Positions 1-42,545 of a stretch of 64,000 bases of DNA are shown one piece after another (within the stretch, counting starts at the first letter, position 1; each line of letters begins with the position of its first letter). The stretch covers positions 310,001-374,000 of the forward strand of contig WION01000017.1 in assembly GCA_015039365.1 (NCBI GenBank), given 5' to 3'. The notes under the pieces are model-generated. The model worked only from the letters and a program-made list of their open reading frames with translations, was not told the origin of the DNA and ran no database searches. Made by a program: the position numbers and the translations under genes. Source of the DNA: Amanita rubescens. Lineage: Eukaryota > Basidiomycota > Agaricomycetes > Agaricales > Amanitaceae.

Positions 1-3000
1 TGGGCTCAATTAAGGAAGGATAACGGTAGTCAGGAAGATAAAGAAGGCGAGAAAGAGGACGAGCTGAAGGATAGCGGCAAGTCGGAGACCCAGCGCAAGG
101 AGAAGAAGAGCAAGAAGGAGAAGAAGGAGAAGAGGGAGAAGAGGGAGAAGAGGGAGAAGAAGAAAGAGAAGGAGGCGGAGAAGATCACGACGACCACCGT
201 CGAAACCGGCCGCACGTCGCCCAGTACGACGAGGCCCGCCAGCTCGGATAGCCAGACTCTTAACAGAAAAGTCAGCATCCTCGGGCTCGGATTGCCCTCG
301 AGTATCCGACTGCCAACGCTCAGAGGAGGGTCAACCGCCTCTTCCGTCTTCTCGGCTGCACGATCAAGCTCTAACCGGCTCTCCGTCGATAGCGGTATCC
401 TGGGGAGGGTTCGCTCCGGCTCAGTGCTGTCAAACGGATCGTCTTTGCGCCCTGCGTCGACCGCGTCGAGTAATTCCCGGGTGTCGTCAAATAGCTCTTC
501 GTCCGTGCGTTGGGACGAGGAAGGTCTTGAAACAGTGAAGGAGCAGAGGAGGAAGGAGAGGTTGGAAAGGAAGGTGATGGAGGAGAGGAAGGCGAAGGAA
601 GAGAAGAAGGCGAAGGACGAGAAGAAGGGCAAGAAGCGCGGCGGGAAGGACAAGGCGAAAGATAAGGACCCAGCCAGTCGACGGGCTTTGGACGGGAAGA
701 AGAGGGTACCCGTTTCGGAAATCTTTCCAAACGCTGGACCTAGTGAATCGGACGAGACGACACCTAGACGCTCGTCTGTCACGCAAAGACCTCCAGTGGT
801 GGCGGAAGAAACAGGAAATGACGGCTCAGACGACGATAGACGCTTCAATGAGGATGCGACGCCTACACCAAGAATTCGTCCTCGTCCAGTTTCGGAGCAA
901 TTGTTGGGTAAGGCAAGGCCGCTTGCGATGTACGATAACGACGATGGTAATTATCTTGTCTTGCTCATGTCCTCGCAAGACGCTAATCCTCCTGCGTGCA
1001 TAGGTGCCTTGTCTGCATTGGACGCGGCGACGAACGACCTCGCGCAACTGATCATGACCTTGAATCTAGAAGCAACACCTGGAGCCACACCCAATCCCAC
1101 ACCCCTCAGACCTTCTTATGTTGACCGCGACGCTACGCCAAAGGTATCGAAAAACCCTCTCCAGAGAACATTGCTCCGGGGTATGTCGTCCATAGCATCT
1201 CTCCGACCCTATGCCCAGTCGATACGACGTACCGGGTCTCAATTATTAGGTGGCCCCAAGAATCGAGTTCGTCATGCCACAAATCCCGCAGCTGGCGAGG
1301 TCGCCATTGGACAGCAAATTGCGCCGTGGTCGAAGCTGTTGGAAGGAGTTTCGTCTAACAAGAAACAATCCACAAGTTCATTGTCACTGAGAGCGAAGCA
1401 GAAGCATTCAGTCTCGCCGCCGAGTACGTTCCGTAGAAGTCATCGAAGGCAGACGACACCCGCTCCTGAGCCAGAACCAGCTCCCGAGTTCCAGCCCCTC
1501 CAGCCAGCTGCAAGGCCGAAGACCGCGCCGTCCCATATGCCGGCTTATGATGAACTGAGGTTGTCGGAGTCGTCAGAGTCTTCGATTGAAATAGGTCGTG
1601 GCGGAATGACCATGCGCGGCGCGCCGTGCTCGAACACGTTTGGGTCCAGGAAACGAGGGACGTTCCGCTCGGCTGAGATTGAGAAGAACAGGGTCCCCAT
1701 TCCGCCAGAGACGAGGAAGATGTTAGCTTTGTCTGGTACGGGCGGTTCAGACGCACCAGCTATCTACTCTGTTCCAGAAATGGACGCGTCGGATCATGAA
1801 TCGGATATACCTGAAGAATTGCAACGCATACTATCTTCCAACATCGATGGATCCGCGCCTGTGGACGATGACACGCTGTCGTTCCGCAGGATCGTTAAGA
1901 AAGGTTCTGGTTCACCGCCTTCCGTTCCTCTTCCCGTCCCCTTTTCTTCAGAAATACCGTCTCTCGCTATGGAATTGGCTACCGAATTCCCATCGGTATT
2001 TGGAGCGCACATCATCGACGATGACCAAGATCATGTAGCTGACGAAGAAGAGGACACCATTCAGTCATTCGATTTTACTGGCGAGCTTAGGAAACTGAAA
2101 GAAACGGGTGGTTCTGACCGACGAAGCTTCGTCGAACAATTGGAGAATGCCTTCCGTACGCCTCCCCAGCTCGAGCTAAAGTTTGGAGGCCGGCGGGGAT
2201 CTGTTGCGGATCAGCTTCCTCTGTCCCGTTTGCCGTTTGCTTTGGTCAAGGAAGAGAATAAGGATGAAGGATTTAACAGCCAGACGGAAACGGAAGCTAC
2301 GACCGAAACCGAAGGCTCCGATTTGGAAACTCGATCCATCTTTACCTTGCGCAACCGTAAATCTGGAACATTGAAAGCCAAGAGGTCTGCCCTTCTCCCT
2401 CGAGGCGATAGTTTGAGCGAAACCGATGATGGCCGACCGCCGGTCCCAATCATAACCATCTCGCCCAGTTCAACCAGGCCGTCGAAAGGTGAACTGAATA
2501 TGTCATTTAAATTCGGCGGCTTGCCGAAACCATCCCCAACCGATATGAAGAAGCGACTTTCTCTCTCGGATATTATACCGCCGCTGCCAGTATTTCCTTC
2601 GCAGGCCGAATCGTCGCCCATGTCTGAAGAAGAGTCTATGGACTCTATTTTGAAATCCATCTTCCCCAAAGACAATACCGCTCCTTCCCAGTCCCGCTCT
2701 CGTCTCAACTCGAATACAAGTGCAAAACGATGGAGCAGAATTTCCGCCAAGTCTTACGTTGGTCATTCAAGGCAATCGTCCGCGTTGAGCTTTGCCGGGT
2801 TCGACTCTTTTGAAGAAGTCCGGCGCGGTTGGGAATTCGGTGGGGCTAGGCCTGTTTTTTACCCTCCCCCTCCGGCTTCCACAGATGTGAAGGTGGGCAA
2901 TCAACAGCGAGAGTCGGTTCTCAGCATCCCGTCCATTTCGTCTTACGGGCGAGTCATCAATCCGGGCGTAGTCGATCCTTTCGGGTTTTCCCTGCCAAGT

Positions 3001-5316
3001 CTCCAGGAGAGGCCTGTTTCCGAGGACATCTCATCGGCAACATTTTCGTTTAGCGTCGACGACACTTTTTCCTTCATGCACCGCCAGTCAAGGCGTATCA
3101 GAGTCGAGAGCGACGCTTCCAGCTTCTATTTCCGCCCTCCGCTTTCTCACATGGCCCAGGATCGCAGCAACCGTCGGGAGTCAGCTATTTCTGTCAGCAG
3201 CCCTCGCGTTAGCCTTTATAATAACCCGAACTTTACGTTCCACGACTTGGGCGCCAATGGCAGCCCGGCGGCGCCTTATCCTTTGCACGGTGCAAGTAAT
3301 GGACACGCTGCTTGGTCGAGACATCGGCGTGATCCTTCCATTGACTCTGTCATGAACGATCTATCAAGATTTAAAGTGGCTAGGCCCGGCTTAGGCGACA
3401 AGATGTTCGAGACAGAATTCCATCAAGATACGCAACAGTCGTATTCGCTGTCCTCCCTGTCTGATTACGACCAATCGTCGCAAGTGCTACCTCCAGAGTT
3501 GATGAGGAATTCGATGTGCGATTCTATCATGGACGTCGACGAGTTCAGATCTCCGGGAGACTCAATTTTCGACAAGACGAATCAACGTACATCCGAGCCG
3601 ACCACTTCTATCTTTGGCGATACTCGCGCGCAAGGATTCTTACCACCATTCAGGCCCCTTTCCGTCCTCAGCACGTTGAGCGTTCAAAGTCCTCCGAAGG
3701 AAGACGATACATGGATTAGCGTTAGTACCATACATTTACCTGCGGATTTTCTTCTAATGTCCCTGTAGATGATCGGTGGCGGGCAAATACGCCGAAATTC
3801 GGTGGCTTCCGTCATCCAAGCCTCTCCTTGCGCAAGAGTAGAGAAGCGAAAGAAGGCTTTCCAACCAATGGACCAGCACGAGGAAGAACAGCTTTCGCCT
3901 AAGAAAGCGAGGATTATCAAAGAGTCGCCCATCGCTTCCGCATCTTCCGCCAGACTCAACCGCAAGGAACAGATGATCAAGACTACGCGAGAGATCTTGG
4001 AAAAACTAAGCGTGGAAGAGAGCGTTTTAGTCGGTCAGGGCGAGGATTCGTCTGTGTCTTGTGAGTGTACATCAACGTTTTCAGCTTCCATTTTCTTATC
4101 ATTCTCGTCTAGTTGGCTCAGTACCTGTTTTCTCGAGGCCGTTACCAGCAGGCCGTTCTCGTTCAAATACTTGCACATCTAGTTCCGGGGCGGATACTCC
4201 TTCCCTCTCATCAGACGGCTCATCAATTTCCGGGGGTTCCCAATCAAGCATTGATCTCGCTCAACTCAACTCGCTACTAACTAATTCAACTCGTTCTCTA
4301 ATGTCTAATGGAAGCGCAGCGCGTCGGACCCGACTCCGCGCGCGTGGACAAGGTCACCGCCGTAGATACTCTGCCCGGGTGTCACGCCACTCGGTATACG
4401 AAACAATCGAAGAAGAATCCAACGCTTCTCCTGCCACGGTCAAGTCCTTTAAGTCGAATACCAAAGATGTGCCAGTCATTGTCGTCAGTTCCGGTTCGGT
4501 GGATCTAACAGCATCAGACGGTTCGTTGTGGGACGGCGAGCGAGGGATTGACGCGCTCGACCGGTATTACACTCTCAGAACAGAAGCGGAAGACGCGGTT
4601 GTTGAAAGTAAGCGGACATGGTTGGACACACCGTTTTCGTTATACGCCGTCCAAAGTGAGTTTGGGCTATTCCTCATAGAAACAGTACTAAGACTCGTCT
4701 AGATTTCCGGCCGCCTCATAATTCCGAGGGCATGAAGGCGCTTCTGCAGCATTCAGTCCAAAACTTTGGACCTCTCCCCTCCGAACTCAGGCCGCGCCGT
4801 CGTAGTAGGACCCATTCTAGACCATCTCCGTATCCTCTAGCTCGCGTCAGCAGAGTCTTCCACGCCCCCGAATCGAAATCGGGTTCGCCACCAGTTGACC
4901 ATAGCATGGGCAACGGCTCATTATTATCGCAGCCGGCGTTACAGGACGCCCGCACGAACTTGAACGTTCCGCCGTCACCCGCTCCTTCTTTTACGTACAA
5001 GGCCTTGTCGCCAGAGAAAGATATGCTCAAGAGACCACTACTCGGACGGTCCGCAGTGCGTCCTCGCATTAACTCGGGCGCTCGCCGGGTTCCCTCTGGT
5101 GGGGCAAAGCGCAACGCTAAATCGTCAAATGGTGACCTGAAAGAGAATAAGGAGAACATCAGTACGGGATCGGCCAAAAGGTAATTTCTTACCATAAGCA
5201 GATTTTTCTCGACTGATTAAGCCCTACCCAGCCCAGGAGACTCGCTTCGACTAAACCGTCCTCGTCCCCGCGGCCGCCCTGCCAACTCAACTCTATCACA
5301 CCCTATCCGAATCTAA
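1..5316 (+). CDS. Large Ser/Lys-rich protein of unknown function, 5' end outside window
   Basis: The frame is open from base 1, so the gene starts upstream of the window. I read five exons: 1-3720, 3769-4060, 4113-4655, 4703-5180 and 5232-5316. All introns are GT-AG, 47-52 nt, and phases close to a TAA stop at 5314-5316, giving at least 1,705 residues. The first 50 residues and residues about 180-220 are Lys/Glu-rich and probably coiled-coil or disordered. The rest is Ser/Pro-rich with many basic patches, as in a regulatory scaffold. Near the C terminus sits a block around 4560-4655 with YYTL, EAE, ESK and DTP, then PLPSE and RRRSRT, and a last exon with RPRPRGRP. The same blocks in the same order, split by an intron at the same place and phase, recur in the neighbour at 5747-7060. 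No catalytic domain is visible and the function is unknown. Confidence 0.75.
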
Positions 5317-11266: not shown

Positions 11267-12198
11267 TGCGAACACCTAGCGATCCCACATTTTGAGCCTT
11301 TTAATGGCTGGGCTAACATGAAGATGGCTCACTATTAAGGAGGCTGAAAGCTGCAAATTGTCGACACCGGCATGGAGGTCGAGAGTAACCTGCTGATGTA
11401 ACCATACTAATTTGGGAAATGCTAGTCCGCCATATACCAAATATAGTAACTCCTCTGGCGTTCTCATCGTCGGTGTCAACATTGAACGTCGCGAAGGCAG
11501 ATGAAAATGGAACACAGAGCGCCGAGCGCACCTCAATGTTGAGCGCCGGCTGAAGAAGTAAAATTAGTATCTTGCTTGAAAACGCCTGGGCCAACGCAAG
11601 TAGGATACGCTCGAATTGGTATGACACAATCCACCGCTAGAGCAAGCCAAATTGACTAGTATAGTTGGGATCGGGGAGATGGGGCATCATGAGAAATGCG
11701 CGATGGTGACTGGGAGGGTCTTCAAGGAAGAACCAGAATGGCCTGGTATCCGGGTCGAGAGTGAGGCTACCAAATGGGGAAGTTGGTGTGCGCGCCTAGT
11801 TAGCACCGCACCTTGGCCAAACCCACCATTTAGCTGATACCTTTAGGCTACTTGCACCGCGCTCTCACCTCTTGGACGCAGTCTAATATACTGTATAGTC
11901 GCGCACGACTGGCGACCGGTGTCACTGCGCCGTGCGGCACCAGCATTTGAGCCGATCAAACTCCGACCCAGCCGAGGTTCAACATATCGTCTACTACCTT
12001 TCATACTGGCAGGTTTAGCCCCGGGAGCATTCAATTATGGCGTGCTAACTTACATTCTAGATACACAATCCTTTGCCTCCTGTCACCAAGCCACACCTCC
12101 TCACCTTCTCGAAGCAAATACTTCCTTGAGGGGCCCCAGGATCATTCTATCACCACCCATCAAATACTTCCATTGCCATTCTAGCACATATTAATTTG
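11267..12198. other. Intergenic region between HNH gene and GTPase gene
   Basis: About 930 bases. Open frames on the minus strand at 11276-11627 show no recognisable domain. The stretch 11761-11846 is the second copy of the dispersed repeat seen at 9244-9336. It contains the divergent promoter region for the two neighbours. Confidence 0.45.
11761..11846. repeat. Dispersed repeat, copy 2 (partner at 9244-9336)
   Basis: Same ordered blocks as copy 1, including GCGCGCCTAG and GCACCGCACCTTGG, in direct orientation 2.5 kb away on the other side of the HNH gene. Confidence 0.6.
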
Positions 12199-15100
12199 AT
12201 GGCAGATAAAGCTAGCAAAGTTTCATCAAGTATGCCAACTTGAATTCTTGACATTCCCAATGTAATACTACTATACTAATTTAACTCACACAAATCAGAT
12301 ACAGAAGAAGCATATGTCAAAGGGCTCCGAGAGCGATATGAATGCCAACATTTTCGTATCCTTGTCATAGGCAGGGCTAATGCTGGCAAAACAACCATCC
12401 TTGAGAAGGTTTGTGGTGTGGCAAAGGGAACAAAACCCATCATATATGGCAAGGATGGTAAGAGAAATTGGATTTTTGCAAATCCTTTGACTATTGAGTT
12501 TCTCTTAGGCAAAAAGCTAAAACAGTCTTTATCTCATCTAATGCCATCAATGGAGGTCAGTCAAATATTGATGCATGAATGAACATTCATCAGCAATGAT
12601 AACAGAGAGGCCTACATGACATTGAGCATCAAATTACATACAAAGGCAGTAATTTCATTTTTCATGACTCTCAGGGTTTTGAATCTGGTGCAATTGAAGA
12701 ATTGAAGATTGCTTGGGAGTTCATCGAAAAAAGGTCTGCAGAAACTGAGCTAAAAGATCAGCTGCATGCAATCTGGTATACCACCTTAGCTCTTGTAATA
12801 TGTACCTGGCTGACTAACCTTCTTATAGGTACTGTATACCCATGGATAGTCCTCGACCCATTCTAGCCACAGAACTTGAGTTCTTTAACAAAGGGACTGG
12901 CAAAGGTACATTCTGATGATTAGCAAATTTGGTTTGGTGCAGGAAATTGCCTCTCAGCTTTGATTGACACTTCTTGCCCACTAATCAAGCCTTCCACTTC
13001 CCAAAAAATCTATGGTCAGGCCTATAGTGTGCTGATTAGTAAATGCTTTTTTTATACAGTTCCATTGGTGGTCGTATTCACCAAGTTTGATGGTCAAGTA
13101 ATCAGTGAATATACTGGCTTGCCTGATACAACAGCAACTGAGGATAAGTGGGAATATGCCAGGAAAAATGCTGAAAGTGTTTTCTGCAGTGTTTATCTTC
13201 CAAAAATCTTGGATACCAAATATGCACCCAAAGCATATGTGCGACTGGAAGGTGAGAATAGTGAACATTTCTGCCTCCAGACTGGAAATAATGGTGTTCA
13301 ATAGACATGGATCTATTTGAGAAGAATTGCCCTGAATTGACTCAGCAAACTGCTGATGCAATTGATGATATCATCTTACATGAGTTGTTCATCTCAACAC
13401 AGATGAATAACCTTGATCTCTGTGCTAAAGCTGCACTTCAGTAAGGGCCCATTTAAAATCTCATTTTAATCATTGACCTTGCTTAGACACATCTTGGTTT
13501 CTAAATTTGACTGGAATGATGCCATCATTGCAGTCTTTGTTAAATTTCCACATTTTTGGGTAAGCATATGGATTGTGCCAATAGTTGCATATGATGGATT
13601 TGGAACAGATTGACAGAAGTGTAGGTTTCTTGCATTATTGTATATGAAATAATAAATCACAAATTGTGCAACAGGATGTAAATGGCACTTCAATTCCTTT
13701 GTGTGCAAGCCTGGTTGACAATGCTAGAAATCTGTTGATGAAATACATGTGAGTTGACATCATCATACATATATGTATCCATTGCAAGATAGCAAGAAAG
13801 TATCTGATATGTATGATTGACAGTTGGTGAGTAGAATTCAATCAATATACCTTTAAGGTCTTATCCCATGATAAATAGTTTGTGAGTGATAATCCATGTT
13901 AATGCTCAGCAAGCTTGTCTTATGATCAACAGGGAGTGAGTGGCATCACTCCATTTTCCTCAGATAATCCCATGCTGAATCATATACATAACCAACAGAA
14001 AGTGAGTAAATCTATATTTTCAAGCTGCCTTGCCACATTCCATTGGCATCTTATCCAAATAACAGGGAGTGAGTGATGCCACATATTTCTTATATTGCCA
14101 CCTCATATCCTACTTGAATACAGAAGGTAATGAGTACCCTAATATTTCTGAGGTATCTTAGGCCTGATTAAAGTGACAGAGGGTTAGTGACACTATATTT
14201 TTATCTGGCAAATAATTTCATCAGATGTCACCTCATGAACAACAGAAAGTGAGTGATTATACCCTTCATCCTGTCATTCTAATGAAACCGATGAAACCTT
14301 CATGCATAAAAAGGCAGTAAGTATCAACATGCACATATCCAAAGTGATAACTAATCAGATTTCTATCAACAGGATGTGAGTGATACTTCTCATGAAAGCC
14401 GGCCTAATCATATCCAACACAGAAAGTGAGCAACTGTGACACTGTGTTTCTCTTCAAAAACAACTTACTATGATCATCAGGAAGTGAGTGGTGTGGACCA
14501 CCCCTCTGATGGGTAAACCCATGACATTTTTATGTTCAACAGCTAGTCAGTCACCTGCACATTTTCTGATAGCAGCTTCATGATACATGTTTCAACTACC
14601 AATAGAGAGTAAGAAAATTGCACATTTTCATGAAAGAATGTCTTATTCAAACATGTCTTTCCATGACCAACAGAAAGTTAGTAACACTGCACATTTTTCA
14701 TGAAAGGCAGCTTCATCACATCTTTTATGTGACCAACAGCAAGTAAGTGAAATTAGACATTTCTGCACAATTGTTGCAATCCTTCTATGACCAACAGAAA
14801 GTGAGTGACATTGCATGTTTTTATGAAATGCTTTAACACATCTTTCATTTGACCAACAGGATGTGTGTGGTATTGGAAATTACTTTGATGACCTTCTCAG
14901 CACATATCTTTCTATCACCAACAGGGAGTGAGTGACATTGCACTTCCTTTGTAAGGTACACTCACATATTTTTTTCCTTTTACCAACAGTTTGTGGGTAA
15001 CATTGCACATTTTTCTGAAAGACACTCTTGTCATATCTTTTGTCTTAACAAACAGGGTGTAAGTGATGTTGCAAATTGATCTAAACAGTGGTCTTAGGAC

Positions 15101-17127
15101 AGATTTTCCCATGACCAATAGGAAGTGAGTGATTTCCTTCTCAAAATGCAATCTCATCACTACTGATCCTATAACCAATAGGTTGTGAGTGAAACTTGTG
15201 CACTTTTGTGAATGATGTCTTATAACAATTTTTTCCATGATCAAAAGCTTGTGAGTGATATCCAATGTTTTAATGAAAATCATGTCACATCTTTTCCTCA
15301 TCAAAAGCGAGTGAGCTATTTTGCACATTTATCAGTCTTATCACATTGTTTCATATTGTCACTACATGTAGTTGGTAAGCATCATTTCTTATTTTCATGA
15401 GGGATGGTTTCATCACTTCTTTCACAGGCTGTGAGTGACTTTGGCCATTTTGATGCTGGCAGCAACTTGAACAACACATCCCTTGCATGATCACCAGTGG
15501 GTGAGTAATGATCTATGTCATTCTGAAATGTCATCTCATTCATCTCATTTCCTGCAATAAACAGCAAGTGAGTGAGATTGCACATTGTTTGAGAACTTTG
15601 TCTTATAACATCTTCCTTTTGCCAACAGCTTGTGAGTAATGTTGCAGTTTATGCTCAACAATAATCCCATAACATCTTTATCCAACCAATAGGGAGTGAG
15701 TGGTATGGCATTTTTGGTGATAGGCAGTCTCAACATATTATTTTATGACCAACAGTTTGTAAGTAACATTACATTTTGGGGAAAGGCAGTTTATTGAATA
15801 TTTCCTTATGGCCCACAGCAAGTGAGTGTTATTTCATATTCTTTACAAGGGGCATTCTCATCAATTCCCTTCCTATCAATAACAGGGAGTAAGTGACATG
15901 AACAATTTTCTTGAAAGTCTCATATGATGGTTTTTAATAACAGCATGTCAGTAACAATGAATATCAGTTTTAATAAGGCAACCTAATCACCTTTTCTGGA
16001 CCTAACAGGGAGTTAGTGACATTGCACAATTTCTCAAAGGCTCTCACCACCTCTTTTTCTCTGATGAACAGCTTGTGAGTTATATTGCAAACTTTCTCAA
16101 AGGCTATCTCATCACCTCTCTTTTTTTCTGATGAACAGCTTGTGAGTGATATTGCAAACTTTCTCACAGTGCTACAGTATCTCATGCTGCCAACAGAAAG
16201 TGAGCAATATTGAAAACATTTCCAAAAATCAGCTTAGTGACATTTTTTCCTATTACTCACAGGGTGTGAGTGACATGACACATTTTTTGGCAGTATCATC
16301 ACATATTTATATTTTTTATGATCAACAGCTAGTGAGTGACACTGGATATTCTTCTGCAAGGCAGACTTATCACATGGTATGGTTTCTTATACCCAATAGG
16401 AAGTGAGTGTCATTATAATTTTTTTAATGATCTTGATTTACATACACATTTAATAGCCAGTAAGCACATAAGCTTATCCTTCCTTGGTCTAATGTAACAT
16501 CACCCATAGATTGTATGATATCACTTCATCTCACCTAATCCTTCTTCCCCATATGAGTGTCTTGCTCTGCAGGTAAGTCTAGTAACTTGGGAGCTATCAA
16601 TTGTGATATCAATCTTCTTGCTAGATTGTAGGTCCAATGGTCCTGGCACTGGAGGTTCTTCAACTTCTTATAATCAGCATGAAATTTTCTGTTGGTTTGG
16701 AGATCAACAAACAAATCGAGACACCAGATTTGCAAAAACTGTATGGTCACCATTTTACCTTACATGAAGAAACTGACACAACTACGACCAGCCTACAACC
16801 TGCCAAGCCTTAGTTGGTAAATTATTCCATTCATTCATACTGTTTATGCTAACACTTTCAAGCAATCATTGTTGTCACCCAACTATCATTTTGGATTCAA
16901 AAGTCATTTATGCCAGCAATTAAAGAAGTATTGGACCAATGCAAGGATAAAGGCTATTTTGAAAAACTGAAAACCATCATTACTTCTGAAACTATGCATC
17001 TTGGTCATTCAGAATTGGTTGCATTCCTGCAGAAGCAAGTTATCCAATTGGTGGTATGTACTTCATTTACTATTCAGGGACTACTTATGCACATATTGTA
17101 TGGCAGGATGAAATACACATAACTTGA
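12199..17127 (+). CDS. P-loop G-domain GTPase with an array of 3-nt microexons
   Basis: N-terminal exons are 12199-12229, 12299-12457, 12509-12555, 12606-12775, 12829-12905, 12943-13014, 13060-13251, 13305-13440, 13487-13559 and 13609-13620. Joined, they show G1 GRANAGKT (residues 35-42), G3 DSQG (100-103) and G4 TKFD (193-196), as in the large mushroom family of G-domain proteins. Then follow exons GAT 13675-13677 and 13728-13748, 44 exons of exactly 3 nt between 13824 and 16512, a 15-nt exon 16558-16572, and a hydrophobic segment in 16625-16745. The last exons are 16814-16816 (3 nt, tentative), 16863-17053 and 17107-17127, stop TGA. This model has 61 exons, stays in frame and predicts about 491 residues. 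The second hydrophobic helix is in exon 16863-17053. The G domain is well supported. The downstream link around 16745-16862 is the weakest join. Function is unknown; membrane association is inferred from the hydrophobic helices. Confidence 0.75.
13824..16512 (+). repeat. Array of 44 intron-plus-codon units (3-nt microexons)
   Basis: The sequence repeats a unit of 50-71 nt whose only strict features are a 3' splice site (usually CAACAG), exactly three variable bases, and a 5' splice site (usually GTGAGTGA). Donors read as GTGAGT in 24 of 44, the rest are close variants; acceptors are CAG in 32, TAG in 9 and AAG in 3. The intron bodies share a loose consensus (TTGCACATTTT..., CTCATCACATCTTT..., ATGACCAACAG) but are strongly diverged, with many lengths. 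None of the 44 triplets is a stop codon. All are phase 0 with the exons on both sides (13728-13748 and 16558-16572). Confidence 0.85.
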
Positions 17128-19826: not shown

Positions 19827-19877
19827 AGTTGTGTTTATGATATTTATGTAAACTAATTATTTAATTACGAGCGCGTC

Positions 19878-21101
19878 TTTCCCACGCACGTTCATGTTCA
19901 CCAGCACGCAACAGGCCCCTTCAACAGGAGGATTTCTCTCCTCTGATCCATATCTTACTCAAACAGGTCCTAACTTGGACCCAAACTCTCCTGAAGTCTT
20001 TCGTCAAAACTTACAACTAGTGCAACAACACACGATCCAAGTCCAATCTTTGGCACGGAGCGCTCTAGCCGGGATGTACGTTTTTTTTTGCAGCCTAAAA
20101 TGCCTCTCAGCTAACAACACGAGAGAGACAAAATGCTTATCATCCTGGAACGAACCCATCTCAAACTTTTGCCGATTTGGCCAATGTTAAACAAGCCATC
20201 CACCTTTTATTAGAAGTGATGCGCCAATCTGGTGTTGGAGCTCTACCCTTGTTGGCGTTGGTACCCTCGTTGCAAGGGACGGATGTGGCGATGGGCGAAC
20301 CGTTTGGTCTTGACGCTGCGAGTACCACTGCGAGTGGTAGTACGGGTGGAGGAATAGCGTCGATTAAGGTTCCGAGCGAGGAGAAGTTGATGGAAGATAC
20401 GATGAATGGGATTAAAGTCTTGTTTGAGAGGCAGAAGAGGAGTCAAGAGAGTACGGCGGTGGTGGCGAATTTGTTGGGTGGGATGAGGTGAATTGAGGTG
20501 TAGTGCGTATTTGATTTTGCCTATCGTGACGTTCTGACGTGTATATACAATAGATTTATGCGGTTGACAAACTCGTACCAGTCTAATGCGATATGAAAAA
20601 TTCGGCTCCTCAGACTCAGCCATAACAGCTGCCGAGTCGGGACGATTTCAGTCGTAAATACTCCCCGAAGGCGTGCTATGGCGCGACCGATCGACGGCTG
20701 TAGTTTGAACACCCGCTTTATCCATGTGTTCAAGACAAAGCTGTGGAGTACGCGCTGTTCAACAACTTCCCCATCAAGGGCTGACGCGGAAGCTTGAGAC
20801 GAACGTTCTGACCACCGCCGCCATACGCCTAGCAATAAGCGAGATGTCGGAAACGAAATGTCAGCCTCTGTAAGTCTACATTCCCGCTTACGTCCACTTT
20901 ATCTTACAGCCCCGGGATCGAGGTGCCACCAGTGCCAGACAACTTGAAGAACCGAAAGGCCGAATTCGGGTACCTCATCGATGTCGATTTCCAGCGTAAC
21001 TACTACAACAACATCGGAATAGAGAAAGACATGACATTATCAGACTACCACAACAGACATACGAAGGAAGCTATCGTGCGGAGAGCTTGTCAAGTGACAA
21101 A
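19878..21101 (+). repeat. Segmental duplication, copy 1 (partner 42541-43760)
   Basis: From TTTCCCACGCACGTTCATG to GTCAAGTGACAAA the two regions align almost base for base, with scattered substitutions and small indels. Each carries the same two genes in the same order. Flanks are unrelated on both sides. Confidence 0.85.
19894..20491 (+). CDS. Conserved hypothetical protein, duplication copy 1
   Basis: Two exons, 19894-20075 and 20128-20491, join through a 52-nt intron to give about 181 residues. It has a Gln/Ser/Pro-rich start, a helical segment (FRQNLQLVQQHTIQVQ), a conserved middle with NAYHPGTNPSQTF, a Leu-rich helix ending MRQSGVGALPLL, a Gly/Ser/Thr linker and a charged C-terminal helix. 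I do not recognise the family with confidence. The helical, Gln-rich make-up would fit a subunit of a nuclear complex such as Mediator, but that is only an impression. The second copy at 42557-43168 keeps the frame, so both may be functional. Confidence 0.65.
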
Positions 21102-22254: not shown

Positions 22255-23012
22255 TCAATAAAGCCTGAACATCGATTCATTGGCATTTGATAACATACAC
22301 TTCGACGAACTTCCGGAAAGCCAGCCCGTAGGTTACTGGCCACGTTGTCAAAACGGATTGGAGAGCTCCACCAAACAGAGCTACACGAGATCGTAAAGGG
22401 AATTACGTTCTTGACGGATACTACGTCAGATTAAACGGTGCAAAACGAATCTGGGAAGATCTAGGAGGAAATCCAGTTAAAGAACAAGAATTCTGGATAC
22501 CACAAAAAGAAACTAGACCTCCGAACGAATCGTACTATTATTTCGCAGATCTATATCTTCAGGAACAGCACATCAGATTCGATCACCTTACAGAACGTTG
22601 GATAGCATCCGAAACACAAGAATTTGTCCCTAACGAATACTTCAACACCCCCACTTGGATAAAAGGGACTGTTGACGCTCTACCAGAGAACTTAAGACCA
22701 AAAACTCTCCTTTCCATACAGACAACTACAAAAGGCAAAAAGAAAGCAAATTTTGGCCTAAACGATAGTGAATCCGAGAAAGAAGATACAGATCAAAAAC
22801 CCGATCTATCTCTTGATTTTCTCAGTGACCTTTCAGTTGGAACGACACCAACACCTGCCCAACAACCGACCAATCCCGAACCAGGTCCTTCGAGCCCTAA
22901 AGAAGAAAAGGACGAAGAAGACCCGTTTGACTCTGACAGAATCGAAGTAGACGAACCTAAACCCGATCCAACTCCACCACGCAGAGATCCATCACCCCCA
23001 CCATCACCAAGA

Positions 23013-24071
23013 ATGTCCGGAGGAAGTACAGACCCTATACCCAACCCACGAACCCCTAGTCTCATCGGAGATCTCCCTGAATTCAAAGGGAAGCGAAAGG
23101 ATGCCAATACATTCATAGAAGATATCGAAATCTTCTTTGACATGAATCCTGAACGGATGAATACAGACCGTTTAAAGATCCTTGCTGCCCTGAATAAGAT
23201 CTCAGATGGAGCTAGACAATGGAAAAAGAATAAATTAGCGGAGTTACGAAAATCACGCGCTACCGTAGAAGGAGGCGTCACAAGACCCGCTTTATTCGAT
23301 GACTGGGAAGCATTCAAACTATCATTCTTGACAGATTGGGGAGAAGTTGATCCAAGCGGAAATGCATACACGAAAATTCTCAATCTACAGAACAGATCGT
23401 CCATGAAAGGAAAGAAACAGATGACCTTGCCTAATTATGTCAATCAGTTCAAGGAACAAATCACGAAAGCAGGAATCGAAGGAGAAGCAGCATTCCATAT
23501 GTTCGGAAAAGGACTTACAGCACCCGAGTTCGAAAAAGCAATGCTCATGAACCCAAAAACATTACAAGATTGGTACGACATTGCTATCAAACTCGACAAC
23601 ATCCGAACCCGTTCATACGCTTATTCCCCCCGATCTGGAAATGGTCATTCATCATCCTCTCATAACGACGAATCATGGGCTATGCAGATCGATCATAAAT
23701 TTCTAGAACAAGAAGAAGACCCGGAGTTAGAACTTATGATCAGATCTATGTCCAAAGAAGAAAGAGAACGCTACATCAAAGACGGTTTATGTTTTATCTG
23801 CGGAATCAAAGGACACATGTCAGGGCAATGCCCGAAGAAGAAAAGAAACAAAGGGAAAGGCCGATTTAAAGGAGGAAGGAAAAGAGGATTCACGCCCAAA
23901 CGTCACATTCGAGCCACATCAAATGATGGTGACGGAAATTGGGAAGAAGAAGAAGTCCGAGAGTCTAAACCAAATTACACCAAGAACATCCGAGCGCTGA
24001 TGAAAGGGATGTCAACCGACGAAAAGAATGATCTATTACTATCTCTTGCCGATGATAACGAGGATTTTTGA
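23013..24071 (+). CDS. gag: Gag polyprotein of chromovirus
   Basis: From the first in-frame ATG, 352 residues. The core GDLPEFKGKRKDANTFIEDIE and the following helices are the retrotransposon Gag domain. A CCHC zinc knuckle CFICGIKGHMSGQC lies near residue 258, followed by a very basic stretch. The same frame is open without any Met back to 22332 and encodes a plausible N-terminal region (Tyr/Trp-rich, then Pro-rich), so the true protein is probably longer, with a lost or unspliced start. It ends in a TGA that overlaps the pol frame. Confidence 0.9.
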   Translation: MSGGSTDPIPNPRTPSLIGDLPEFKGKRKDANTFIEDIEIFFDMNPERMNTDRLKILAALNKISDGARQWKKNKLAELRKSRATVEGGVTRPALFDDWEAFKLSFLTDWGEVDPSGNAYTKILNLQNRSSMKGKKQMTLPNYVNQFKEQITKAGIEGEAAFHMFGKGLTAPEFEKAMLMNPKTLQDWYDIAIKLDNIRTRSYAYSPRSGNGHSSSSHNDESWAMQIDHKFLEQEEDPELELMIRSMSKEERERYIKDGLCFICGIKGHMSGQCPKKKRNKGKGRFKGGRKRGFTPKRHIRATSNDGDGNWEEEEVRESKPNYTKNIRALMKGMSTDEKNDLLLSLADDNEDF

Positions 24072-27000
24072 CAGTGGGACTCATGACAGTGGATGAAGTC
24101 TCAGACACACCAGATTCAACTATCGATATATCTCATGTAACAGTACAATCTATTTCGAAACGAAGACTATCTGTCCCTATCAAAGTTGAAACTGAAAACA
24201 ACACTGAAAACCTCGTTGCCCTTGTCGACTGCGGAGCCGAAGGGATATTTATCGACAAAAGGATAGCACACAAATGGAGAAAACGAAAAACTCTACGACC
24301 AATTAGAGTTTATAACGTCGATGGCACCATAAACAAAGAAGGAGAAATTGATGAACAATGTCTAATCACCTTCGAAATGAACGGAAAACGCATGACTGAA
24401 TGGTTTTACGTATCAGCAATAGGAAAACAAACGGTTATACTGGGGCTTCCTTGGTTAGAGAAGCATAACCCTGACGTAAATTGGAAAGAAAAGACTCTAG
24501 AGTTCCGAGACTCTGAACAGGATAAGATCAAGGCATCACTTCGGAGCATCTGTCAACAGATTGACAGAATAGCTATGCCTGAAAGGGAAGAAGATCTCGT
24601 CATCGGATATTTGATGTCACACAAAGGATCACAGACGACGGATCACAGATGGAACACGCATACATTTGAGGATATAGGAAGCTGGTCAGAAGACGAATAC
24701 GACCAAGTAACTATCGCACGATATACACCAGCTCAACAAATGGAACACAAATACCATCAAACAGAGGAGGTTTACACGCTCCCTCCTGAATACTCGGCAT
24801 GGAAAGATGTATTCGAGAAAAAAGCAAGTGAACGATTCCCGGAAAGCCGATCTTGGGATCACCAGATAGAACTTCGCGATGATTTCATACCAAAAAGAGG
24901 AAAAATCTATCCCTTATCTCCGAAACAGCAGAACACACTGGATGAATGGATCAAAGAACATATTGAAAAAGGCTACATCAGACCATCGAAATCGCCGCAG
25001 GCATCACCTTTCTTCTTTGTAGAGAAGAAAGAAGCACAAAAACTACGACCTTGCCAAGACTATCGATATTTGAACGAATACACTAAACCAAACGCATATC
25101 CACTACCCCTTATCTCCGATCTTATGATTAAACTCAAAGATTCGGAATATTTTATGAAATTGGACATCCGTTGGGGATATAATAACGTTCAAATCAAAGA
25201 ATCTGACAGATGGAAAGCCGCCTTTATCACCAATCGAGGTTTATTTGAACCTAACGTCATGTTCTTTGGATTACGAAATTCACCAGCAACGTTCCAAGCT
25301 ATGATGGACGATTATTTCAGGGATTTTACAGAAAAAGGATGGCTCGTCATCTACATGGATGACATACTAATACACGCGCGCACTAAAGAAGAACTCGAGA
25401 TTCGAACAAAACAAGTACTTGAACGATTACAGAAACACGATCTTTACCTCAAGCTTGAAAAGTGTAAATTCGCTGCCAAAGAAGTTGATTTTCTAGGCAC
25501 CGTCATATCCAAAAATACAATAAAAATGGACCCGATCAAACTTGCCGGAATTAGGGACTGGCCAACCCCTTCTACCGTTAAACAAGTTAGATCCTTTTTA
25601 GGATTCGGAAATTACTATCGAAGGTTTATTTTCGGATTCGCCCACCTTGCACGACCCCTGCACGACCTAACAAAGAAAAACAAATTATGGACATGGACCA
25701 CAGAATGCCAAGTCGCATTTGATCTATTAAAAGAACGCTTCACCTCCGCGCCTGTCTTAATGATGCCCGACGTTAACAAACCCTTCATTCTACAAACGGA
25801 CGCATCAGACCGCGCTATCGGAGCAGTTCTTATGCAGAAAGATGACAATGGCGACTTACACCCATGCGGATACCTATCCCACGCTTTAACACCGACTGAA
25901 ACACGATGGCAAATCTACGACCGAGAGTTATTCGCCATTTATTACGCTCTTTACAACGAATGGAGATACCTGCTTGAAGGAGCAGAACACCCTGTCATTA
26001 TTCATTGCGACCACAAGAATCTACTCTATTATCGAGAACCACAACGTCTCACGAACCGCCAAGCACGTTGGTGGAACGATTTGTCTCGATTTAATATTAA
26101 ATTAACCCACATCCCCGGAGCAAAACTAATAATAGCAGACGCACTATCCCGCCGACCCGATCACATGACAAAAGACGAACCAGAAGAGTTAATAACGATG
26201 CTCCCAAAAGAACTCTTTGTTCGCACAATCGCCGAAGATCTCCGTGACAGAGCAATGGAAATAACTGTCAAAGACGACTTCGCTCAATCAATCAAGAAAT
26301 GTCTAAAAGAAAAAGGAATACCACCTTTACGCACTGCCCTTTCTGATTGGACCCTTGACGACGAATTAATCCTGTACAAAGGGAAATCTTTTATTCCCCC
26401 TGATACCGATCTTCGCCGAGATATTATTAGAGATTTTCATGAATCACCAACAAGCGGACACCCCGGTTTCTTCAAAACACTCGCCTTATTAAAGGAACAT
26501 TACTGGTGGCCATTGATGTCAAAAATGGTTAAACAATTTATTGACGGATGCACGGCATGTCAACAAATGAAATCAAACACTCACCCTACCGCCGCACCTC
26601 TGATGCCAATCAAGTCTCACGCACACCGACCCTTCCAACAAATAACCATGGATTTCATAACCGACTTACCCATAAGTAACGGTTTTGATTCTATCTTTAT
26701 CGTGGTCGATCAAGGACTTACAAAGGGAGTAATTCTCATGCCTTGTAATAAAACTATCACCGCCGACGAAACCGCCGACCTCTACATTCGGAATGTATTC
26801 AAAAATTTCGGATTACCCGACACCATGATCTCCGATCGAGGACCACAGTTCGCATCACATGTCTTTAACGGCATAATGGACTCATTAAAGATTAAACACA
26901 AAATGAGTACCGCCTTCCATCCACAGACTGATGGACAAACGGAGCGATATAACGCCGAATTAGAAGCTTATCTTCGAATATTCTGTGCCTATGAACCAGA

Positions 27001-27679
27001 TACTTGGAACAAGATGATACCAATAGCACAATTCGCGCATAATTCACGCACTCATGAAACATTGAAACAATCGCCCTTCCAATTGATGTATGGAACATCC
27101 CCGGTTGCACTTCCCCTTGTCTCAAACAAGACAAATACACCAACCGCCGATAACCGCATCAACTTCTTGTTCCGCGCACGAGAAGAAGCACTCGCCGCAC
27201 ATGATCTAGCACGAGCTAAGATGATGGAAAGAACAACGAGAAAGACTAAACTGTTCAAAGTCAATGACAAAGTATGGTTAGAATCTAGGAACCTGAAGAT
27301 TCCTTATCAGAGCAGAAAGCTCGCACCTAAACGAGAAGGTCCCTTTTCCATCAAAGAAGTCTTAGGACCAGTGACATATCGTCTCACGCTACCAAGACAA
27401 TGGAAAATTCATAACGTATTCCACGCCGCCTTACTAACGCCGTTCAAAGAAACTTCCTTTCACGGAATAACAGAAACAAGGCCCCCTCCCGATCTGATCG
27501 AAGGAGAAAAAGAATACGAAGTAGAAGCACTGCTTGCACATCGCAAGTTTAGAGGGAAATTACAATTCCTAGTAAAGTGGAAAGGCTATGACACCAGCGA
27601 AAACACATGGGAACCAGAAAACAACTTGACGCATATGGAAGACCTCCTTCTAGAATATAAAAGACGAAGGAAACTCTGA
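24068..27679 (+). CDS. pol: Pol polyprotein with chromodomain
   Basis: 1,203 residues in the -1 frame relative to gag. In order: aspartic protease with LVDCGAEG (Cys where Ser or Thr is usual), reverse transcriptase with LRPCQDYRYLN and IYMDDILIH, RNase H with LQTDASDRAIGAVL, integrase with a His-His-Cys-Cys zinc region (HESPTSGH...CTAC) and catalytic Asp (MDFITDLP), Asp (SDRGPQF) and Glu (DGQTERYNAELE), then a C-terminal chromodomain ending in VKWKGYDTSENTWEPENN. All catalytic residues are intact, so the element may be active. The annotated start is a TTG; the first ATG is at 24083. Production probably needs a -1 frameshift on TTTTT just before the gag stop, or re-initiation. Confidence 0.95.
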   Translation: MTVGLMTVDEVSDTPDSTIDISHVTVQSISKRRLSVPIKVETENNTENLVALVDCGAEGIFIDKRIAHKWRKRKTLRPIRVYNVDGTINKEGEIDEQCLITFEMNGKRMTEWFYVSAIGKQTVILGLPWLEKHNPDVNWKEKTLEFRDSEQDKIKASLRSICQQIDRIAMPEREEDLVIGYLMSHKGSQTTDHRWNTHTFEDIGSWSEDEYDQVTIARYTPAQQMEHKYHQTEEVYTLPPEYSAWKDVFEKKASERFPESRSWDHQIELRDDFIPKRGKIYPLSPKQQNTLDEWIKEHIEKGYIRPSKSPQASPFFFVEKKEAQKLRPCQDYRYLNEYTKPNAYPLPLISDLMIKLKDSEYFMKLDIRWGYNNVQIKESDRWKAAFITNRGLFEPNVMFFGLRNSPATFQAMMDDYFRDFTEKGWLVIYMDDILIHARTKEELEIRTKQVLERLQKHDLYLKLEKCKFAAKEVDFLGTVISKNTIKMDPIKLAGIRDWPTPSTVKQVRSFLGFGNYYRRFIFGFAHLARPLHDLTKKNKLWTWTTECQVAFDLLKERFTSAPVLMMPDVNKPFILQTDASDRAIGAVLMQKDDNGDLHPCGYLSHALTPTETRWQIYDRELFAIYYALYNEWRYLLEGAEHPVIIHCDHKNLLYYREPQRLTNRQARWWNDLSRFNIKLTHIPGAKLIIADALSRRPDHMTKDEPEELITMLPKELFVRTIAEDLRDRAMEITVKDDFAQSIKKCLKEKGIPPLRTALSDWTLDDELILYKGKSFIPPDTDLRRDIIRDFHESPTSGHPGFFKTLALLKEHYWWPLMSKMVKQFIDGCTACQQMKSNTHPTAAPLMPIKSHAHRPFQQITMDFITDLPISNGFDSIFIVVDQGLTKGVILMPCNKTITADETADLYIRNVFKNFGLPDTMISDRGPQFASHVFNGIMDSLKIKHKMSTAFHPQTDGQTERYNAELEAYLRIFCAYEPDTWNKMIPIAQFAHNSRTHETLKQSPFQLMYGTSPVALPLVSNKTNTPTADNRINFLFRAREEALAAHDLARAKMMERTTRKTKLFKVNDKVWLESRNLKIPYQSRKLAPKREGPFSIKEVLGPVTYRLTLPRQWKIHNVFHAALLTPFKETSFHGITETRPPPDLIEGEKEYEVEALLAHRKFRGKLQFLVKWKGYDTSENTWEPENNLTHMEDLLLEYKRRRKL

Positions 27680-27680
27680 A

Positions 27681-29432
27681 ATGTCATACCAAGTTATTAT
27701 GCAAAATGGAAACAACACCACCGACGCCGTTCAGCACTTCCCCTGGTCTGAATTCTATGCTGGAGAGAACACCGACACCCGACTCACCACTCTCACTGAA
27801 CCCCACCGACCTCGACTCGTTCTTCATACCACTGACACCGACGAAGAAGACGCTGACCCGAACGACTTCGTTGATGTTCCCTACAGATCTCCCGATCAGA
27901 CCTCGTCTCAAACGATCCCGGTCACTCCCACCGAAACCCAGGAAACCCACCACGGAACATCAGAAACTCTGGCTGTACCTGGACGAATTACGGAAGATCG
28001 CAATAGCCGACCGATCCCACCTAGAAACGCTGAAGACATTAGCGTTACCTTACATAGAGAGACGGTACTTGCCGGTCACGCTTCGACTCAACCTCATAAC
28101 GAATCTATTCGAGGCAACGACCAGAGTCACGGTACAGATGGGACTAACCGCGATATGGCTGGCTCCATCATACGAACCACCCCCGATCTCTATCTCAGTT
28201 ATCACGGAGTTACTACTTACACCAAGGTTAGAGACCGCGTCACTCTGATCTGTAACGCCGCTAGACTACAGGTCGACATCTTTGACCAAGAAAGGATAGC
28301 TCGAGTCTGGCGACTTCTCATGGACTTCCGAACCGCCACTACCCTTGCCGGTCAAGCCCGAGATCAGTACAACTATCATTGTGCCGATTTAATCGAAACG
28401 TTTGTAAACGTTACGTCACTATACTGGGAAGACGTTCATCCGAAAGGAGGAAACCTAGATCAATTGGCGATAGATCTATTACGACGACTTCTCACAGCTG
28501 ACATCGAACGTTACATCATCCTTGCTATAGAAAGCATTGACGATCAAAGGTTTGGACTAAAAATACAGCCTCACGATCAGAATAACCGCATCGCGGTCAA
28601 CCATTGGTTTTGCGCTACCGAAGCTACACCCGACCGACACCGAGCAACTAGATGCATTATGGAAACAGATCGTAAATCGAGAGAAATCTGGTGCCTCACC
28701 GGAAAGATCCGAGACCTCTTGTCCAGTATCCAAGGAGACACAGAATGGACTACAGCCGAATTCGCAGATGGAGTTCCCCTGCATCAACTCACTAGCGACC
28801 ACATTGCGCAGATCAATAATGCGATCAGCGATCTCGATCTTCATCGCCGAATCCGTACAACAGGCGATCTCATTGAGGAAGAACCGAAACGAGATAAGAA
28901 GGCTCCTCCTCCTCTTCGATCCGCATCACCCCCAACCACCACCGTTATTCGCCACGGAGTCTGGAATATTCCTGTCCCCACTACTCGACGACACGACACT
29001 CCGCCTGCTCGACGACCTACGACCCGCAGTATGACCAATGCCGCCAACCAACGCCCTCACCGTTACAACCGCTGCATCCACTGCCGAGGTAAACATGCCT
29101 CTGAGGATCATCATCTTGCTACTGCAATTCCTCCTATGTCTACTCTACCTCCACGCGCTCCCACGCGCCGACGCGATCCGACGCCCGGTCCTTCCACTAA
29201 GAAGAAAGGACGTTCTCGAACTACCACAGATATCGCCAATACCCCCGCTTCCACTAGCCGCCGCCCTCATCAGCCGAAGAAGAAGGGAAAAAAGAAGGCA
29301 CACCACGCGTCACAGTGTCAGGCATGCGTCAACGGACGACAGTGCGACGGAGCCGACGACGACGCCTGTGATCTTTACGGCGACTACGGCTATCAGCACG
29401 ACGACGACGCCATGCACAACATGAACACCTGA
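27681..29432 (+). CDS. Third ORF of the chromovirus, unknown function
   Basis: Begins 1 base after the pol stop and encodes 583 residues. The N-terminal 170 residues are polar. The middle (about 180-400) looks like a folded helical domain. The C-terminal part is Arg/Pro/Thr-rich with a zinc-knuckle-like CIHCRGKHASEDHH, a Lys-rich stretch and a Cys cluster (CQACVNGRQC), ending in an Asp/His-rich tail. A nucleic-acid-binding accessory role is inferred from the Cys/His motifs and basic charge. It is not an envelope protein by sequence. The first 540 nt also carry an open overlapping frame (27706-28248). Confidence 0.7.
   Translation: MSYQVIMQNGNNTTDAVQHFPWSEFYAGENTDTRLTTLTEPHRPRLVLHTTDTDEEDADPNDFVDVPYRSPDQTSSQTIPVTPTETQETHHGTSETLAVPGRITEDRNSRPIPPRNAEDISVTLHRETVLAGHASTQPHNESIRGNDQSHGTDGTNRDMAGSIIRTTPDLYLSYHGVTTYTKVRDRVTLICNAARLQVDIFDQERIARVWRLLMDFRTATTLAGQARDQYNYHCADLIETFVNVTSLYWEDVHPKGGNLDQLAIDLLRRLLTADIERYIILAIESIDDQRFGLKIQPHDQNNRIAVNHWFCATEATPDRHRATRCIMETDRKSREIWCLTGKIRDLLSSIQGDTEWTTAEFADGVPLHQLTSDHIAQINNAISDLDLHRRIRTTGDLIEEEPKRDKKAPPPLRSASPPTTTVIRHGVWNIPVPTTRRHDTPPARRPTTRSMTNAANQRPHRYNRCIHCRGKHASEDHHLATAIPPMSTLPPRAPTRRRDPTPGPSTKKKGRSRTTTDIANTPASTSRRPHQPKKKGKKKAHHASQCQACVNGRQCDGADDDACDLYGDYGYQHDDDAMHNMNT
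27706..28248 (+). CDS. Overlapping frame inside the third ORF
   Basis: 180 residues in the +1 frame from ATG 27706. It has a Pro/Thr/Ser-rich start, a basic RPRLKRSRS patch and amphipathic helices (WLYLDELRKIAIADRSHLE). Its composition looks more protein-like than the main frame over the same stretch. It may be the original N-terminal part of the third ORF that was shifted by an indel near 28.2 kb, or a real overlapping gene. Confidence 0.35.
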   Translation: METTPPTPFSTSPGLNSMLERTPTPDSPLSLNPTDLDSFFIPLTPTKKTLTRTTSLMFPTDLPIRPRLKRSRSLPPKPRKPTTEHQKLWLYLDELRKIAIADRSHLETLKTLALPYIERRYLPVTLRLNLITNLFEATTRVTVQMGLTAIWLAPSYEPPPISISVITELLLTPRLETASL

Positions 29433-41085: not shown

Positions 41086-42545
41086 CTATGCTGCTGCCAC
41101 CATCTGTGGTTGCACCTGCTGCTGATGTTCAACTATCTCCTGCTGCTCTTGGAGCATTCCATCACCTCCCACCTGCTGCTGTGGCTGCTGATCAAATGGC
41201 ATAGCACCTCCTGCACGTGCAACAGCTGCCCCAATTGCCCGAGTTCTCAGTGCCAATCCGCGAGTCTTTCCAATCACGGTCTGGTATACGGGCTGTGGTG
41301 ACCGATGAATCTCTATGACATTCTGGTAATGACCGGACCAATTCAATAACGTGGCCGCTACACACGAAAGACAAACGCACCTTTTCCAAATCAATCTTGG
41401 CATCTGCACCCATCCGTATCTCTCTAATCAGGTTCACGATCCATTTCTCGCCTTCGTCTGGTGAAAGATCAAGTCTCTCCGACAAGTCCCTACACACGAA
41501 AACAGAGTCAACGCCTTCGTCTTTCGAACCCGGACAAACTCACCCAATGTCAATCTTTTGATGGATCCTACAATATATCCAATACCGAGCGTTGTCCAAA
41601 AAGTCATATTTAAACTCTCCCAAAAAGAAATCGGTTCCGACCACCACATCAACAGCTTCCTTGAGCGCCTTTTGCGCAGCTTCAAACTCGACGTAGAGCT
41701 CCTTCAAAAAATGACGTGACGGGTCTTGGTATTGGTACTCCTCCATCTGGATGACTTTGACGATGTCGCGGATGGCGTTCCGTACACGAGACGAGACGGA
41801 TACGCCGAGAGTTTGTTCGGCGGAGGAGGTTTTGCGGGAGAGAACGGCGGCAGCGGCAAGGTAGCGGTTTGGAGTAGGCGGAGGCCATGAACGTGTCAAG
41901 CAGGAGCGTTCGGCCATTTGGGTGGTTGAAATAGACGAAGAGCGCCGGGTCACTGATAGCTGTCGAGGATGTTGAAGAAGGGCCGGTTGTGGAAGAGGAG
42001 GCACGGCTGTCAAATGGCTTCGCGGAGGCTATTTAGCTCTTCGAGAGCGACTTCCCGCGGTGAGGATGTCAGAGGAGTGTTTACCCCAATGCGCAGAGGA
42101 TGCGAAAGTGGTACAAATAGTCTGCGATCCGCTGTAATTCCCGTATGAAAACTGAAACTGGCCAAAGTTGTATAGGGCAATGATTTGCTCTAGCGTCAAC
42201 TGTGGGGATGAAAAAAACACAAAGGTAAGCGCATGAGATCAAGTAGCACGGTAACGAGCAAGCACACCAAAGTTATCTTTTAGATACTGCAAATTTTTGA
42301 ATCTTGTCCTACCGCAATGACTGAGCTACGTCGGGATTTTCAATGACGTTCAACACAGCTTGAGCTTCCTCAGGTTGCAACCTTTCATTCGTAGACACAA
42401 CTTCTTCCCTTCTCCCTGCAAACTCTATCAAAAACGGTGTTGTCAATACCAACGTAGCGGTGGGATAAAAGATAACCGAAAACTCACCCTCGGGAACTGG
42501 CTCATCAGGATGGATCTGTTCAAACAGGGACAGTGCCATATTTCC
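41086..42545 (-). pseudogene. Broken eIF3e (INT6) copy, 5'-truncated
   Basis: Read right to left, pieces match translation initiation factor 3 subunit E: LFEQIHPDEPVPE, REEVVSTNERLQPEEAQ, IENPDVAQSLR, LTLEQIIALYNFGQFQF, NYSG, LFVYFNHPNGRTLLLDTF, RDIVKVIQMEEYQYQDP, and a PCI-domain end with [20 protein letters not shown] and [14 protein letters not shown]. Introns are retained, so it is not processed. Lesions: the first 40-50 residues are missing, one base is lost after NYSG near 42128, the frame shifts again near 42060, an in-frame TGA follows in the LREAI segment (about 42010), and the block between DTF and LAAAAVL is deleted. The C-terminal exons are still open. A functional copy must exist elsewhere in the genome. 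Confidence 0.8.

Follow-up and report, generated by a model that had tools for sequence, protein, structure and literature searches.

In a window of 64,000 nucleotides (nt) of the Amanita rubescens genome (contig WION01000017.1, positions 310,001 to 374,000), a P-loop GTPase-like gene on the forward (+) strand contains an array of 44 consecutive exons of exactly 3 nt each (LFGKGKRKADKELRKQKDGFGEVLRLAWQLGFQGHGLLKGLEPI; positions 13824–16512 of the window). Site checks, a splice-site chain finder, close copies of the array and the gene model agree on this delimitation. Very probably the block is a true one-codon-exon array, from which the introns are removed and in which the codons are joined in phase 0. 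One-codon exons joined in messenger RNA (mRNA) were seen for paralogues of the gene, most clearly where the database protein P0026 is compared with the array region L031, on contigs whose status as transcripts is itself deduced; we infer the splicing of the window's own copy from these paralogues.

Splice sites and coding nature of the array

All 44 triplet starts listed in the original prediction lie at the coordinates given there, and every triplet is preceded by AG and followed by GT (44/44). The 43 introns between the triplets measure 47–68 nt (mean 59.5), which bears out the predicted range of about 45–70 nt, and share the donor consensus GTGAGTGA and acceptors ending in CAACAG. They are mutually related, with a mean identity of 0.60 vs. 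0.49 after shuffling. Information in the triplets is low at bases 1 and 2 (0.08 and 0.17 bits) and amounts to 0.64 bits at base 3. The predicted constancy of the acceptor-donor distance was likewise recovered when distances were counted in nine sources (the window and regions L031–L038): the count peaks at 3 in each of them (6 to 50 matches), and any other distance from 0 to 30 gives at most 3 matches per strand.

The unit pattern YAGNNNGTRAGTR matches 26 times in the window vs. a mean of 0.66 and a maximum of 3 in shuffled sequence. A chain finder that ignores the triplet, with a matrix derived from the 44 window sites, returned a longest run of 38 in the array; in 300 dinucleotide shuffles of positions 13560–16760 no run exceeded 2, and the rest of the window gave none above 1. 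It misses the weak site at 14124, so that the 44-exon run comes out split. The shuffles, together with the reversed-pattern control given below, rule out a chance origin.

No stop codon occurs among the 44 window triplets, as had been claimed, and the same holds far beyond the window. None of 849 triplets in 50 chains from 20 regions is a stop, nor is any of the 782 triplets that remain after removal of identical contexts, whereas 2,000 permutations that shuffled each codon position among units averaged 54.7 stops and never gave fewer than 39. These 782 triplets do not count as independent trials, given units of common ancestry and several regions that overlap or seem to be alleles. Thirteen fixed offsets from the same exons yield 8 to 160 stops per 782 triplets. 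The absence of stops, together with the coding exons on both sides of the arrays, supports the earlier assignment to a GTPase gene read in phase 0 throughout. Third bases in the triplets are mostly A or T (A 448, T 343, G 56, C 2), unlike those in the ordinary exons of the window gene (295 codons; C 18.6%, G 17.3%), so that the triplets draw on a narrowed set of synonymous codons, plausibly owing to constraints of splicing.

Three further copies of the window array are 96% identical to it (98% without gaps), and in each of the four copies all 44 AG|GT frames are intact. Across the four, a single one of 135 triplet positions varies, synonymously (T to C at 16512), and 46 of 1,980 intron-interior positions do. 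The 58 gap columns fall into intron interiors (45), the first six intron bases (9), the vicinity of acceptors (3) and a place outside (1), with none in the triplets.

Of 1,314 homologues, the best 120 were retained and 48 of these were examined. Several derive from JGI contigs, mostly 1.0–1.9 kilobases (kb) long, in which the reading frame continues through the places of the introns; P0026, P0018, and P0023 fill 1,434 of 1,486, 1,383 of 1,506, and 1,335 of 1,492 nt of their contigs, respectively. Because these contigs are intron-less, they were taken as transcripts. In P0026, the G domain is connected to the C-terminal part by a linker reading W-FESADDAAGKEREYYDDGIHSGGYGYYGGKKISEKERDHRRDFVEREI. 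L031 has triplets that read FESADNAAAKERQYYDD-VHA-GYGYYGGEKISEKERDKRKDFVEREI and are identical to P0026 in 38 of 46 aligned codons (score 199 vs. at most 62 in 200 shuffles); by eye, TGG and GGG exons of L031 with GC donors are found at the W and G positions of P0026. The linkers of P0004 and P0055 start WFEKGKKESDREIEYDG and WFEHGKKDTDKQIVYDG and resemble, with changes, the beginning F-E-Q-G-K-K of paralogue arrays. When 20 array strings were compared with 13 database proteins, the best z score relative to shuffles, uncorrected for multiple comparisons, reached at least 5 for 11 strings. P0090 ends before the array, and 231 of its 239 residues lie within exact 8-mers of L031, so that the L031 gene or a near-identical one appears to be expressed. 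Residues 296–478 of P0026, from its C-terminal part, matched only P0026 itself and P0018 when used as a query. The G domains of P0018 and P0023 are close, and it is in the linkers, in sequence as well as length, that these proteins differ most (by eye). The earlier reading of the triplets as exons finds additional support both in the close copies, with their single synonymous change, and in the intron-less paralogue contigs.

Several observations weigh against this reading. Only about 3 triplet changes would be expected in the four window copies at the intron rate, so that the stability of the triplets is supportive but not decisive. The JGI contigs carry no RNA label, and their transcript status is deduced from their being intron-less. 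P0026 does not derive from L031 itself, given that 8 of 46 residues differ, and by eye L031 includes one irregular 4-nt unit in addition to the two GC donors. The best z score stays below 5 for 9 of the 20 array strings; that of the window string is 3.4 (score 47, best shuffle 46), which is chance level given the number of comparisons, and when the array-encoded segment of the window protein served as query, none of 139 candidates matched at an expectation value (E) of at most 1. Some copies look broken, among them L055: two of its exons are 4 nt and two are 2 nt long, and in the assembled sequence stops interrupt the frame once the exons are joined, for which sequencing error is a possible cause.

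The G-domain part of the gene comprises eight ordinary exons upstream of the array (12199–12229, 12299–12457, 12509–12555, 12606–12775, 12829–12905, 13060–13251, 13305–13440, and 13487–13559), delimited by the gene model and homologues. It carries a Walker A motif, GRANAGKTT, of the form GxxxxGK[ST] (GRANAGKT in the gene model), whose columns are almost invariant in an alignment of 36 sequences (A1), and it ends in FPHFW. The Pfam family MMR_HSR1 (PF01926) scores 20.9 bits on the window protein, just below its cut-off of 21.9, and is carried as precomputed annotation by some close homologues. In the window protein, P0026, and P0018, Pfam gives weak GTPase matches only, and found neither NACHT nor ankyrin domains. 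Downstream of the G domain, all on the forward strand, follow a probable 12-nt exon encoding IDRS (13609–13620; acceptor ACAG, donor GTAGGT), which by eye resembles VDRA at the same place in P0004; an isolated 3-nt exon, GAT (13675–13677), i.e., a 45th, which is part of the gene model and has a chain-finder score of 9.5; and a 21-nt exon encoding KSVDEIH (13728–13748), in phase 0 in the gene model, which sets the isolated exon apart from the run of 44. Beyond the array come a 15-nt exon of the gene model, encoding CLALQ (16558–16572), an exon encoding IVGPMVLALEVLQLLIISMKFS (16625–16690), the 3' end of which is uncertain (16690 or 16745) and was picked by eye against the P0018 tail, and a C-terminal coding exon beginning SFMPAIKEVLDQ (16904–17053; 3' end uncertain). 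The tails of the window protein and of P0018 match overlapping places 3' of the arrays in paralogue regions. The reading frame is open through all modelled exons.

In the mechanism that we consider likely, one codon and an entire small intron (GTGAGTGA ... CAACAG) make up each unit, and the joined codons would link the G domain to a hydrophobic C-terminal part. Simultaneous occupation of two splice sites only 3 nt apart is hardly feasible, and the introns would therefore be removed singly and in succession, by intron definition, each removal fusing one codon onto the upstream exon, which would thus be of full length for the donor that follows. As the exons are 3 nt long and in phase 0, skipping any number of them loses whole codons and keeps the frame; the linker would then vary by gene and perhaps by transcript. 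It would be a variable region in an expanded, possibly recognition-related family, a role that we guess from the expansion of the family and from the parallel with truffle genes discussed below.

Spread of the arrays and their near-identical introns

Arrays of this kind occur throughout the assembly (75.7 megabases). A strict unit pattern, YAGNNNGTGAGTGA, has 4,376 matches vs. 76 for the reversed control; as these matches recover 13 of the 44 units in the window and 318 of the 846 found in 19 regions, we estimate that there are about 11,600–14,800 one-codon exons in the assembly, alleles included. A pattern for the F-E exon pair matches 128 times genome-wide, and one 24-nt intron end plus NNNGTGAGTGA has 577 exact matches, with none in either control. 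The longest runs in L031–L049 count 72 (L046) and 52 (L043) exons, with introns of up to 95 nt. In the 19 regions, which were selected by array patterns, 18 have G-domain exons upstream of the array and on its strand, and 16 have a C-terminal exon downstream; L047 has neither match, and its downstream frame resembles the C-terminal part by eye. The array start F-E-Q-G-K-K-E-T-D-R-E-I (TTT GAA CAA GGA AAA AAA GAA ACA GAT AGA GAA ATT) recurs among paralogues. Public gene models that reach this region (four examined) halt at the array or jump it: the A. rubescens models P0001, P0002, and P0003 stop at most 22 residues from FPH.W, and P0085 passes from FPHYW directly to the C-terminal part. A further model, P0064, ends ahead of FPH.W.

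Linkers were also compared in the proteins P0089, P0105, and P0109 from JGI contigs, which are 43–45% identical to the window protein; those at the same place have A, P, T contents of 0, 0, and 4.8%. This composition suggests that arrays may extend beyond A. rubescens and that these linkers are perhaps microexon-coded too.

In some arrays, near-identical introns separate unrelated codons. L047 (reverse complement of 1176–3255) has 33 introns of 60 nt that deviate from their consensus by five substitutions in total, and no block order is visible in its codons (GAT, GAA, TTT, CAA, CTT, GGA, GTT, CGA, CAC). L055 lies on the contig of L047 at a distance of about 13 kb and differs from it by 4 mismatches in 2,057 aligned non-triplet bases, whereas the triplets of the two agree in 35 of 84 bases (0.417), close to the permutation mean of 0.409. 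The window copies are unlike L047 and L055 in this respect, their triplets being stable across all four. Within arrays, 681 intron pairs reach an identity of at least 97% (22 sources, most pairs coming from L047); 12.3% of them share the upstream triplet and 12.9% the downstream one, vs. 11.3% expected. Among pairs at least 95% identical, shared triplets (upstream/downstream) number 59/59 of 528 in L047 (54.1 expected), 11/9 of 89 in L056 (10.2 expected), 3/3 of 17 in L043 (2.4 expected), 21/18 of 103 in L044 (14.3 expected), 7/12 of 50 in L045 (5.7 expected), and 6/6 of 21 (4.1 expected) and 2/2 of 21 (2.2 expected) in two L055 pieces; L046 and L049 together have 3 such pairs, none sharing triplets.

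Simple tandem duplication of a fixed intron-plus-codon unit is contradicted by these near-identical introns with unrelated codons. Tandem unit duplication does occur too, as seen from the sharing of triplets in L044 and, by eye, from block duplication elsewhere; the slight excess in L044, L045, and one L055 piece fits some whole-unit duplication. At the places listed for C13, the triplets are mostly CAA, CTA, CGA, and CTT, and their order looks partly block-duplicated, which counts against a general decoupling of codons and introns; block-wise duplication is also visible by eye in the triplet order of C79. A search for an uninterrupted, intron-less sequence from which the L047 codon string could descend found none, an empty result that is uninformative for this search.

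The decoupling is the least explained part of our finding. Candidate causes are block duplication combined with selection for codon variety, targeted mutation, and the spread of intron copies between existing codons. Tentatively, and on the doubtful side, the arrays could be a diversification device, in which introns act as scaffolds, individual codons turn over, by exchange or mutation, much more rapidly than these, and frame-neutral skipping adds further linker variants. Unit-level recombination with selection, targeted mutation, or intron-copy spread between codons (e.g., templated by excised intron RNA) might serve as routes to such diversification.

A neutral alternative, compatible with the splicing proposed here, holds that the arrays are spliced as described and that their variety is useless, i.e., that introns multiplied neutrally and are merely tolerated by splicing. 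The block-wise duplication seen by eye in C13 and C79 and the near identity of introns within some arrays speak for it, and we regard it as a serious possibility, if on balance not the probable one. The far greater diversity of triplets than of adjacent introns in the near-identical-intron arrays points the other way, as does the concentration of differences between P0018 and P0023 in the linker, which would be expected if variety were favoured; neither is decisive.

Quite unlikely is the further alternative that the window copy is not expressed and is a pseudogene, in a family that is truly spliced codon by codon, which would likewise leave our reading of the family intact. It is consistent with the lack of a transcript match for the window copy and with the frame-broken appearance of L055, but the open frame through all modelled exons, the retention of 44/44 splice dinucleotides and the absence of nonsynonymous triplet changes in the three close copies argue against it. 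Least of all can we credit that the whole block leaves as one intron of about 2.8 kb, made of decayed tandem small-intron copies with the triplets as meaningless spacers. Skipping the whole block would likewise keep the frame, and in favour of this reading the array introns are related, P0085 joins FPHYW to the C-terminal part without an array and no transcript of the window array was found. Against it, there are 0 stops in 782 distinct triplets, the triplets match residues of intron-less paralogue contigs and the four copies show synonymous change only. An isoform that skips the whole block may exist. As the sole explanation, one large intron or a satellite is ruled out by the absence of stops and the transcript-like paralogue contigs.

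Other features of the window

Several further features accompany the array gene in the window. On the reverse (−) strand, positions 30670–38202 hold one reading frame of 2,510 amino acids with about 48 tandem repeats of 126 base pairs (bp) and Pfam matches to TPR_10 and TPR_12. No NB-ARC domain was found in it by Pfam at E of at most 1e-4, although its start looks NB-ARC-like by eye; it is probably a receptor-type gene with a very long repeat array. Reading frames of a Gypsy-type retrotransposon occupy 22332–29432 (+), with Pfam matches to reverse transcriptase, RNase H, integrase, and chromodomain at 24059–27679 (+). Two copies of a gene fragment starting FPRTFMFTSTQQAPSTGG lie at 19852–20491 and 42476–43168 (+), without a Pfam match in the frames tested, and 11-bp tandem repeats of the ATTCCACAC type are clustered at 43890–45931.

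Comparison with known microexon systems

The closest parallel comes from the truffle Tuber melanosporum, where NACHT-ANK (nank) genes are described, in the available passages of papers that cite the original work (Iotti et al. 2012), as owing their diversification to the alternative splicing of 3-bp, codon-sized microexons, which are multiple or number in the tens (PMC3689799, PMC4986451, PMC10197012). The original prediction that no run of this kind had been described was therefore too strong: according to these passages, tens of codon-sized microexons have been reported. As the passages present it, both cases concern a fungus, an expanded gene family and tens of exons of exactly one codon (here in runs of 44, 52, and 72), but the truffle genes encode NACHT-ANK receptors of an ascomycete and those studied here are P-loop GTPase-like genes of a basidiomycete. 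The truffle system enters this comparison through the descriptions in citing papers, which report alternative splicing.

Schistosome micro-exon genes, reportedly described by DeMarco et al. in 2010, are said to combine exons of up to 36 nt and of mixed size and to encode secreted proteins. They resemble the present arrays in that short exons keep the frame if skipped, which allows protein variation, and differ from them in that the exons here are exactly 3 nt long in units of about 63 nt. Introner-like elements are near-identical introns at many places of one genome, as are the introns at many loci here (577 exact matches of one 24-nt end); in the regions examined here, which were selected by array patterns, the introns stand in arrays within one gene family (18 of 19 regions with a G domain). 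Recursive splicing at zero-length exons also involves an acceptor and a donor too close for joint use, so that the steps are sequential, but in the present arrays the mRNA would gain a codon at every step.

Among basidiomycetes, P450 genes of Phanerochaete chrysosporium have exons of 2–10 codons, the shortest of 6 bp, and introns of 45–55 bp according to the available text (PMC1184071). Microexons in a basidiomycete and small introns are thus common to both cases, whereas that text describes no arrays of one-codon exons (PMC1184071). Plant microexons of down to 1 nt are mentioned in a partly available source (PMC8831610), and another, likewise available in part, calls work on fungal microexons limited (PMC11121469). 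In the open-licence literature we found no report of Amanita microexons, nor, in the portions of it that were available, of one-codon exon arrays in a basidiomycete.

Set against the truffle case by description only, what is new here is the other phylum, the other gene family and the genome-wide spread. With its thousands of one-codon exons, A. rubescens offers an extreme, genome-wide case in which to study how the spliceosome handles splice sites 3 nt apart, and arrays of near-identical introns between unrelated codons amount to a natural experiment on intron gain. Together with the truffle genes, they suggest that fungi may have evolved arrays of codon-sized exons repeatedly, in each of the two cases within an expanded family, by which a role in recognition becomes testable.

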